Source: Rhodospirillales bacterium
Lineage (GTDB): Bacteria > Pseudomonadota > Alphaproteobacteria > Rhodospirillales > UBA2165
NCBI GenBank assembly: GCA_012960465.1
Contig: DUBF01000012.1
Span: forward strand, 1 to 32,676
Length of the DNA: 32,676 nt
Direction of reading: 5' to 3'
A program made the position numbers and the translations under genes. Positions 13,258 through 15,223 of the stretch are shown here, piece after piece. Under the pieces are notes generated by a model. The model had not been told where the DNA came from, did not search any database, and was given only the letters and a program-made list of their open reading frames with translations. How positions within the stretch are numbered: position 1 is the stretch's first letter; every line of letters begins with the position of its first letter.

Positions 13258-13710
13258 TCACAAGTTTTCATTGATAGCATAATCTAGAACTTGAACAACT
13301 TGAGTTGGTTTTTCAGTGACGGCTAACGCTGCGGCATCTATCTCTTTCAAAGCGTGAGTTAGGTCTTTAGCATGTAATACGATTATTGGTTTACCTAAAG
13401 TAGCCGCAATACCGGCGTCAAATGCTGCATTCCATTGACGAAATTTATCTCCGAATTTAATTACAACAATATCTGATTTTGCAATTAATGTTCGTGTTCG
13501 AATCGCATTGACTTGAGCACTTTTATGATCTTTCCAAAATGGATTATCTTCCTGGCCGAGTATTTCAACACCGCAATCGTCGCTGGCTTCGTGGTTAGTG
13601 ACAGGACCAACAATGATTACGGGTAAATTTTTTGCCAAACAGCCGTCCTTGATCTGGTCGCGCCAATCCGAATGTATTTCACCAGATAGATAAATTATCC
13701 AATTTTCCAT
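13258..13710 (-). CDS. ytoQ: YtoQ family protein
   Basis: The 150-residue protein matches the YtoQ family, named from Bacillus subtilis and related in fold to nucleoside 2-deoxyribosyltransferases. It has the entry WIIYLSGEIHSDWRDQI, VGPVTNHEASDD near 36-47, and the C-terminal core SDIVVIKFGDKFRQWNAAFDAG near 79-100 (quoted in part: VVIKFGDKFRQWNAAFDAG). A biochemical role has not been fixed for the family. It ends 17 bp from the gluQ-type stop and lies downstream of gcrA on the same strand with a 57-bp gap. Confidence 0.85.
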   Translation of the reverse strand: MENWIIYLSGEIHSDWRDQIKDGCLAKNLPVIIVGPVTNHEASDDCGVEILGQEDNPFWKDHKSAQVNAIRTRTLIAKSDIVVIKFGDKFRQWNAAFDAGIAATLGKPIIVLHAKDLTHALKEIDAAALAVTEKPTQVVQVLDYAINENL

Positions 13711-13767: not shown

Positions 13768-14127
13768 TTAGGCTGCAATAGTTTTTTTCTTAGTGTTAGG
13801 CACATAAGCAATTTCACAATGAGCCGCGCAATAGGGCTTTCCTATTTCTGCCGGTTTTCCGCAAAAACGGAAATCAGGCTTCCCTGGTTCACCATTTGGC
13901 CAAGAGCACATATTTGCCTTTAAGCTATCTAATGTTATAATTTTACGATCTATTTTGGCGACAGGTGGTTGACGTCTCATAGCCAAATCGAGACGGCGGA
14001 CTTTGCCAACAACGGCATTTTTGGTAATACCCAGTTTTCGACCAATTTCGCTCGCTGAAAGACCTGTTGCCCATAATTTTGTAAGTTCTTCAACGCGTTC
14101 CGGTGTCCACTCAAAGCCTATCGACAT
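13768..14127 (-). CDS. gcrA: GcrA cell cycle regulator
   Basis: GcrA is an alphaproteobacterial transcription cofactor that binds sigma-70 RNA polymerase and favours promoters carrying methylated GANTC sites. The N-terminal helix-turn-helix is clear: WTPERVEELTKLWATGLSAS then EIGRKLGITKNAVVGKVRRL. The C-terminal sigma-interacting part has the CSWPNGEPGKPDFRFCG block and a PYCAAHCEIAY end. At 119 residues it is shorter than Caulobacter GcrA, with a reduced linker, as in several Rhodospirillales. AGGGG lies nine bases before the ATG. A promoter and a perfect DnaA box lie upstream. Confidence 0.94.
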   Translation of the reverse strand: MSIGFEWTPERVEELTKLWATGLSASEIGRKLGITKNAVVGKVRRLDLAMRRQPPVAKIDRKIITLDSLKANMCSWPNGEPGKPDFRFCGKPAEIGKPYCAAHCEIAYVPNTKKKTIAA

Positions 14128-14186: not shown

Positions 14187-14220
14187 ACGAAAATTATATA
14201 AATTTAGTTGTTATGCTCAT

Positions 14221-14250
14221 ACTATATTTAGTATTATGTATAGGCGTCAA
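14221..14250 (-). promoter_or_regulatory. Candidate gcrA promoter
   Basis: Read on the minus strand, TTGACG (14245-14250) and TATAGT (14221-14226) are spaced by 18 bases, giving a start near 14214. The -10 lies within an inverted repeat ATACTA-TATT-TAGTAT (14219-14234). The DnaA box at 14265-14273 is 14 bases upstream of the -35. Confidence 0.5.
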
Positions 14251-14264
14251 TACTAGATTTAGGG

Positions 14265-14273
14265 TTATCCACA
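14265..14273 (+). promoter_or_regulatory. Perfect DnaA box upstream of gcrA
   Basis: TTATCCACA matches the high-affinity DnaA 9-mer exactly. It lies in the 277-bp divergent region between gcrA and the SH3 gene, 14 bases upstream of the predicted gcrA -35. DnaA activates gcrA transcription in Caulobacter, so the place suits an activator site. Confidence 0.6.
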
Positions 14274-14404
14274 ATATATTGATTTAATTAGCCTATTTAT
14301 ATGAGTTGTACGATAGAAACCGAAGTATCATTATCTGTGGTATTTTATTTTATCTTATTCTTCTGATTAATGACATTCTGGTTGTTAGCGACAGGACATA
14401 ATAA

Positions 14405-15223
14405 ATGCTTCTTATATGCGCGATAATTATTAAATTTATTAGTTTATTTTCTATAATACTTGTTTTCTTACCAGGCCACGGACGGGCCGATGATCTCTTT
14501 GCTAATATCCAACTATCACCATCAGCTAAAACCTATCTGGTACTCAAAGATGTAAGTGTGCGTGCAAAGCCTAGGAATAAATCAACACGTGTTGGTCGAT
14601 TGCGAAAGAATGAGAGAGTTGGTGCTATTGGCAAAGCCAAAAGAACTAAATGGGTTGCGGTCAAAAAAGGTGGGAAGAATATAGGGTTTGTTTATGATAA
14701 GGCTCTTGTGCCTGTGATTGATGGTAGTCTTATGAAACCAATTAGCAGTAATATAGTTGTTGGCGAGAAAAGTGATGGAAAACTGTGGCCATGTTATTAC
14801 AAAATTAAATTTATCGGTAAAGTTAAAATTAAGGATAGTTTGCAGGTTACTTCTGATTATGATTTGGAAATGGAATGTGATTACAAGAAAAAAACGATTA
14901 AAATAAATGCCACGATGTTTTTAACAGAATTGCCATATCTTGAGAATAAGAAGCCAATTTTTCAGATAAATGTTGATTTATATAATATTCCGGTGGGGGC
15001 AGAAGATGTATTCTCAGCAACAGTATTATATCACGCTTTGAAAAATAAGATTGTCTTTGATGGAGTGAACAAAGAACCCTTGAAATCAAAAGAAAAGATT
15101 ATAAAAAAGGAGGCGCTTGATTTGCGTGCAGTTCTTAAAGGAGCTGTGGCTATGGCACATCAAAGTTGGGGTCCAATAGTATGGTCTGAATTAGCTAAAA
15201 CTCAAAAAAAATTAGGGTTCTAA
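14405..15223 (+). CDS. Secreted SH3-domain protein of unknown function
   Basis: The 272-residue protein begins with a long hydrophobic signal peptide (residues 1-27), with probable cleavage after GRA (GHGRA-DD). A bacterial SH3 domain follows at about 42-92, with the typical VLKDVSVRAKPRNKSTRVG and GRLRKNERV runs; such domains bind cell-wall peptides. The remaining 170 residues are lysine-rich and strand-like and match nothing I recognise; Cys129 and Cys159 could form a disulfide in the periplasm. AGGA lies eight bases before ATG 14405. The gene is divergent from gcrA and ends four bases from the convergent purD. Confidence 0.75.
   Translation: MLLICAIIIKFISLFSIILVFLPGHGRADDLFANIQLSPSAKTYLVLKDVSVRAKPRNKSTRVGRLRKNERVGAIGKAKRTKWVAVKKGGKNIGFVYDKALVPVIDGSLMKPISSNIVVGEKSDGKLWPCYYKIKFIGKVKIKDSLQVTSDYDLEMECDYKKKTIKINATMFLTELPYLENKKPIFQINVDLYNIPVGAEDVFSATVLYHALKNKIVFDGVNKEPLKSKEKIIKKEALDLRAVLKGAVAMAHQSWGPIVWSELAKTQKKLGF

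Follow-up and report, generated by a model that had tools for sequence, protein, structure and literature searches.

The gcrA promoter region of this Rhodospirillales bacterium carries a consensus DnaA box set directly beside a pair of NrdR-like palindromes, and from sequence patterns and their conservation we consider it probable that DnaA and the dNTP-sensing NrdR control gcrA together. Cells may thus read both signals at the gcrA promoter. The window analysed here is the whole stretch of 32,676 nucleotides, taken from a genome of 3.74 Mb in 245 contigs, and the features at the locus are collected in Table 1. The initial annotation had drawn attention to the DnaA box, to a candidate promoter and to an inverted repeat around its -10. 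The repeat is real, and it is one member of a palindrome pair. The earlier reading of it was incomplete, in that the paired NrdR-type operator that adjoins or overlaps the DnaA box was not recognised.

Table 1. Features in and around the gcrA promoter region (window positions)
Feature	Position	Strand	Remarks
gcrA, GcrA cell cycle regulator	13768-14127	-	119 codons; PF07750, E 1.5e-33
SH3-domain protein gene, divergent from gcrA	14405-15223	+	SH3_3, E 8.6e-6, slightly under the cut-off
DnaA box TTATCCACA	14265-14273	+	exact 9-mer; reads TGTGGATAA towards gcrA
Candidate -35 TTGACG	14245-14250	-	TTGACN kept in 7/7 same-genus genomes with a gcrA match
Candidate -10 TATAGT	14221-14226	-	18-bp spacer to the -35
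NrdR-like box 1 ACCCTAAATCTAGTAT	14250-14265	-	overlaps the DnaA box and the -35 by one base each
NrdR-like box 2 ATACTAAATATAGTAT	14219-14234	-	contains the candidate -10; 31 bp from box 1
Composite TTATCCACAATATATTG	14265-14281	+	joins the DnaA box to an AT-rich half palindrome; sole occurrence in the window genome

The gcrA product scores 102.5 bits against the equivalog model NF050816, below the cut-off of 280, which was passed by just two of the 289 class genomes. Its closest counterpart among the named records is the GcrA of JABIHH01, a Rhodospirillaceae assembly, at 92% identity. We take COG5352 to be gcrA. A YtoQ-family gene (TIGR03646, window positions 13258-13710) comes after gcrA, and many of the named loci, extra-family ones included, have relatives of it in the vicinity of gcrA. 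Upstream lies the SH3-domain gene, with the DnaA box and the palindromes between it and gcrA. These sites could in principle serve the SH3 gene instead of gcrA, as the two genes are neighbours in the family loci. We regard this as scarcely credible, and it was rejected on the loci from outside the family: none of the 60 named extra-family loci has the SH3 gene next to gcrA, within the flanks covered, and the operator persists at gcrA in extra-family loci without an SH3 neighbour. The distance from the sites to the SH3 start also exceeds 130 bp, and the sites coincide in part with the -35 and -10 of gcrA. Another candidate, control of the gcrA promoter by GANTC methylation, was dropped because the window has no GANTC site in the intergenic stretch between gcrA and the SH3 gene.

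A consensus DnaA box was found inside the gcrA promoter region of the window. The exact 9-mer claimed in the initial annotation is there in letters and coordinates, as are the 14 bp that separate the box from TTGACG, the spacer and the TATAGT. The candidate promoter, with 10 of 12 consensus matches, ranks first among the four promoter-like matches of a 321-bp scan, for which shuffles give a mean of 1.6; transcription of gcrA would accordingly be placed near 14214. By count alone, the DnaA box is no more than chance. The window has one exact 9-mer against 0.40 expected, with at least one in 34 of 100 shuffles, and the whole genome has 38 against 35 for the reversed pattern. Since both the window and the genome counts are at chance level, the value of the DnaA box rests on its conservation.

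The same-genus set consists of eight other genomes, seven with a gcrA match; the eighth, G002, is 57% complete and gave no gcrA match. The layout TGTGGATAA-14-TTGACN-18-TATAGT is identical in all seven (8/8 including the window), and the flanks around it differ among the genus genomes. The 9-mer and its distance to the -35, proposed with the initial annotation as features to look for in relatives, were therefore retained in every same-genus genome with a gcrA match (7/7). In the rest of the family, six genomes (G009, G010, G012, G017, G019 and G020) carry TTATCCACA on the opposite strand and ~8 bp farther upstream, and three (G018, G022 and G023) carry a one-mismatch form of the 9-mer. The exact 9-mer was not found in the gcrA upstream stretch examined in G011, G015, G016 and G021, and the family genomes G013 and G014 gave no gcrA match. 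The strand of the DnaA box at gcrA switches between genera of one family (for example, G020/L018 as against L010-L016), with the box remaining beside box 1. This strand switch is an instance of site turnover.

Wider sampling drew on two sets of loci. In the 80 named loci, which are the best 80 of 433 and bear mostly Rhodospirillales or Rhodospirillaceae titles (20 repeat family genomes, and record CP058705 is counted twice), the exact 9-mer lies within 320 bp upstream of gcrA in 43, on one strand in 25 and on the other in 18. The reversed 9-mer was found in 0/80, permuted 9-mers gave a mean of 0.23 and a maximum of 7, and the DnaA 9-mer is the commonest of all 9-mers upstream of gcrA in these loci. 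The class set holds 90 gcrA upstreams from 40 families, chosen by score from the 187 class genomes with a gcrA match and leaving out G294 (long frame), the second G152 copy and G285. In these loci, outside the order, the 9-mer is present in 13/30 and 17/60 (30/90 together) and its reversed control in none, and at least one member of 15 of the 40 families has it, the family tally being the one way in which kinship is addressed in loci counts that come from related genomes. The notion that the 9-mer is a functionless chance match, for which the window and genome counts alone would speak, is contradicted by the conservation, and with the enrichment in the 80 and 90 loci against reversed controls of zero we consider it very unlikely. 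The conservation of the DnaA box points to selection. Because the 9-mer is so frequent at gcrA in the named and class loci, the link between DnaA and gcrA probably reaches past the model orders. The suggestion in the initial annotation of a wider link thus gains from the locus and family counts, and it is weakened by the strand flips within the family and by the loci that lack the exact 9-mer (37/80 named, 60/90 class).

The palindromes beside the DnaA box have the form of a known operator. Boxes 1 and 2 are each 16 bp long and lie 31 bp apart from start to start with 15 bp between them, in agreement with NrdR spacing, and both have the conserved C4 and G13. The predicted operator overlaps the candidate polymerase site, as box 2 holds the -10 and box 1 touches the -35. 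NrdR boxes have been described as two 16-bp palindromes that cover the polymerase site; the gap between them is 15 bp in the E. coli operons, and in the Streptomyces nrdRJ fragment the GC pairs 9/18 and 40/49 are highly conserved (PMC9110341, PMC12176259). In Streptomyces, inversion of such conserved GC pairs lowered NrdR binding 50- to 60-fold (PMC9110341), and spacers of 14-17 bp between the boxes are reported to give good binding (PMC12051234). At 23.5 bits, a score that 0 of 1000 shuffles reach, the window pair ranks above every other pair in the window, the runner-up having 9.7. Within the genus, box 1 keeps C4/G13 in 8/8 genomes, and box 2 is without the highly conserved C4 in four of the eight (G001, G004, G006 and G007). 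Among pairs of at least 15 bits, C4 and G13 are present in both boxes in 42 of 53 from the 80 named loci and in 29 of 43 from the class. A first, exact search pattern, two TAAATATAGT units separated by 19-21 bp, was rejected: with the window's first copy reading TAAATCTAGT, it had no match in its own genome.

Pairs were scored with a PWM trained on nrdJ promoters of the order, with gcrA excluded. Of the 40 genomes whose nrdJ upstreams were taken, nine were dropped for having no pair with at least 20 consensus matches, and the 31 with a clear pair were kept (62 boxes); 30 of these 31 come from outside the window's family, the exception being L222 (G018). The nrdJ boxes were picked by a presumed NrdR consensus, and the PWM from the 62 boxes reads CCACAAAATTTTGTGG. 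In E. coli K-12, the PWM ranks a spacing-31 pair upstream of nrdH, and another upstream of nrdD, first in each 7-kb stretch, and these pairs were equated with the published NrdR boxes by gene and spacing, not by letters. At gcrA, the best pair with a spacing of 31 or 32 beats all 40 dinucleotide shuffles in 20/20 family loci and 47/60 other named loci (67/80), and in 26/30 and 30/60 class loci (56/90). No significant pair was found in 13 of the 80 named and 34 of the 90 class loci.

Could DnaA alone control gcrA, the palindromes reflecting nothing but the AT-rich, promoter-like make-up of the sequence near the -35 and -10? Such an account is at ease with a conserved DnaA box, with a -10 inside box 2, as AT-rich repeats are common near promoters, and with the loss of the box 2 C4 in half of the genus genomes. 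Its difficulty begins with box 1, which is upstream of the -35 and keeps its C4/G13 throughout the genus. Spacing is a second difficulty, since 31 peaks above the neighbouring spacings. Class mean scores have a single peak at 31 (13.7 bits, next 5.0; in the second set 5.3, next 1.1), and in the named loci spacing 31 stands out (11.3 and 10.5 bits), with spacing 19 equal or higher (13.5 and 11.6 bits). Moreover, column-permuted palindromic PWMs of the same composition (up to 200) always stay below the true score, the best reaching 11.6 vs 16.1 bits in the 80 loci and 5.7 vs 11.5 in the class. Finally, a single box of at least 12 bits is present in 26 of 30 gcrA upstreams but in just 1 of 132 other upstreams from the same first 30 class loci. 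Control by DnaA alone therefore appears improbable to us.

The pair is unevenly spread over the class. Some member of 24 of the 40 class families has a pair of at least 15 bits, and in 20 families at least half of the members do; 16/40 have none. The two loci most like Caulobacter GcrA, those over the NF050816 cut-off and by inference Caulobacteraceae, have weak pairs of 9.2 and 14.1 bits, which were reached by 5 and 0 of 1000 shuffles. In many of the 80 named gcrA upstreams (L070-L149) a third palindrome recurs; it lies 19 bp farther up than box 1 and consists in part of the DnaA box. A spacing of 19 bp fits no NrdR geometry known to us.

Another possibility is that the pair is bound in alphaproteobacteria by a different regulator with an NrdR-like preference. 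The extra box at 19-bp spacing in the 80 named loci would be odd for NrdR, as would the loss of C4 in part of the genus. Against a different regulator, the motif was learned at nrdJ and yet finds pairs at both the E. coli nrd promoters and gcrA, and the spacing is the same as that of NrdR; we judge it unlikely. NrdR itself is the reading that we prefer. An nrdR gene is present in the window genome (TIGR00244 over its cut-off, G000:C40), in 22 of the 24 family genomes (21 over the cut-off) and in 262 of the 289 class genomes. With nrdR in most genomes, the co-occurrence of nrdR and the pair is uninformative. G235, which has gcrA and no nrdR, has a poor pair of 2.3 bits, reached by 68 of 1000 shuffles, which is in line with a role for NrdR, in this one genome.

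The DnaA box and the NrdR-like boxes share bases more often than random placement would give. Part of this is built in, because CCACA is common to both motifs; an NrdR-like box of at least 10 bits shares sequence with the DnaA 9-mer in 27 of 43 cases among the named loci, where 5.3 are expected at random places, and in 11 of 34 cases in the class, where 3.3 are expected. DnaA 9-mers elsewhere in the fetched loci overlap such a box in 1 of 23. The overlap registers are few, at -8, -6, -4, -7 and -16 to -19 relative to box 1.

The composite was searched for as the pattern TTATCCACAANATNTTG, which has 22 occurrences in 21 of the 289 class genomes, with 2 for the reversed control. Ten of the 22 are upstream of gcrA, in four families (G173, G210, G246, G282, G307, G332, G362, G386, G404 and the window), a count that is not fully independent, as the pattern was picked after some class loci were known. 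The composite 17-mer was also seen elsewhere. It precedes smc in three genomes of one family (L388, L389 and L390, that is G162, G274 and G354), with one smc assignment made by family search and two by likeness, and nrdJ in two, again from one family (L392 and L393, that is G406 and G335). Single occurrences precede dnaE (L381, G313), pyrG (L394, G327) and a YbjN gene. The genes smc, dnaE, pyrG and nrdJ are a set of chromosome-cycle genes.

Genome-wide searches were made with model R1, built from the same 31 nrdJ pairs. In the window genome, the sole match reported at E<=1 is the gcrA promoter itself (C12:14221-14263, E 0.12), with 150 of 528 first-look candidates scored, and the genome's own nrdJ is not among the R1 matches. 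Across the 24 family genomes at E<=1, there are 51 distinct sites: 10 upstream of gcrA (a gene present in 21 of these genomes), 12 upstream of nrdJ, of which one (G018) was in the training set and two are in one G002 promoter, and 29 elsewhere. The 29 are close to chance, as a threshold of E<=1 over 24 genomes allows about 24. Class-wide, with stricter filters over 289 genomes, gcrA upstreams account for 4 of the 129 distinct sites listed, the window's included. So few sites at gcrA would suit control by DnaA alone, though the yield seems, weakly, to exceed that of random places.

Further sites came to light at other genes. At nrdJ, TTATCCACA lies upstream of the NrdR-like boxes in four (L065, L057, L067 and L068) of eight same-genus genomes compared, and in the same four there is a further box ~73 bp downstream of the NrdR-like boxes. 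An NrdR-like pair precedes parE, for topoisomerase IV subunit B, in two family genomes: L288 (G008:C165:1966-2009), where the gene has TIGR01055 as its best match, and L296 (G014:C229:7930-7972), where it was assigned by likeness. The pair upstream of parE suggests a topoisomerase under dNTP control.

If gcrA is under joint control, the layout lends itself to a switch. A single DnaA box would stand directly upstream of the NrdR box pair, often overlapping it in other genomes, and the two NrdR boxes would be three helical turns apart, box 1 ending at the -35 and box 2 covering the -10. When dATP is high and there is no replication, an NrdR tetramer with dATP and ATP would sit on both boxes, so that the DNA is bent and RNA polymerase blocked. 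Upon the start of replication, dNTPs would drop and NrdR would be released, and gcrA would then be activated by DnaA bound at its box. The outcome would be a rise of GcrA only once replication has begun and dNTPs are consumed. We infer NrdR binding at these boxes, repression of gcrA by NrdR and competition between DnaA and NrdR, and DnaA would presumably act at the window box. NrdR is known to bind such pairs at nrd promoters of other species in a dATP-dependent manner. In Caulobacter, deletion of nrdR is reported to give more spreading, which in the reading of its authors fits a longer swarmer phase. This counts against the switch model, as it is the opposite of what a simple release of gcrA would give; the evidence from the nrdR deletion is confounded by more reductase.

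The two halves of the proposed switch have counterparts in known systems. In Caulobacter crescentus, the gcrA promoter likewise has one DnaA box nearby, and DnaA is reported to activate gcrA, perhaps via DnaA-ADP (PMC3193534, PMC8203912). The window comes from a far relative, where a palindrome pair adjoins the exact consensus 9-mer, whose place is fixed, and the action of DnaA is putative. The E. coli nrdAB promoter combines DnaA boxes with an NrdR box pair that has 15 bp between its boxes (PMC12176259, PMC8203912). The E. coli target is ribonucleotide reductase, whereas the window target is a cell-cycle regulator and its DnaA and NrdR-like boxes touch or overlap. The pairs of the nrd operons (S. 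coelicolor nrdRJ, E. coli nrdHIEF and nrdDG, and alphaproteobacterial nrdJ) share with the window pair the 16-bp palindromes, the 31-bp spacing, C4/G13 and the position over promoter elements. Unlike them, the window pair is at gcrA, which is not an nrd gene, and some genomes of the genus have a degraded box 2.

NrdR sites in Proteobacteria have been predicted comparatively by Leyn et al. (2016), who covered 186 regulons of deoxyribonucleotide biosynthesis (PMC5343134). Neither gcrA nor COG5352 appears in the main text of that paper, to which this statement is confined; an earlier prediction may be contained in its supplement or in the RegPrecise tables. A link between NrdR and gcrA was likewise not found in the accessible text of the open-licence literature on NrdR, Caulobacter, Alphaproteobacteria, gcrA and the DnaA box, and GcrA and ribonucleotide reductase. 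That DnaA acts widely in the alphaproteobacterial cell cycle had already been predicted (PMC8203912), so novelty seems confined to the NrdR side and the composite arrangement.

A broader proposal can be framed, about which we are in two minds and incline slightly towards doubt. In many alphaproteobacterial lineages, gcrA, a cell-cycle master regulator, may be a member of the NrdR regulon by way of a composite DnaA/NrdR site for which the initiator and the dNTP sensor compete, so that the dNTP state would gate the S-phase programme directly; the composite would also mark nrdJ, smc, dnaE and pyrG, with NrdR pairs at parE. In Caulobacter, raised dNTPs delay S-phase entry by a mechanism, apart from CtrA and DnaA levels, that its authors call undefined (PMC12186491). 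The proposed gcrA switch matches this delay without proving a link to it. For the sensing of DNA precursors by the bacterial cell cycle, dATP-loaded NrdR at gcrA would be a direct candidate. If true, NrdR would extend past the reductase genes to an input into the cell cycle, and the link between DnaA and gcrA would go well past the model orders.
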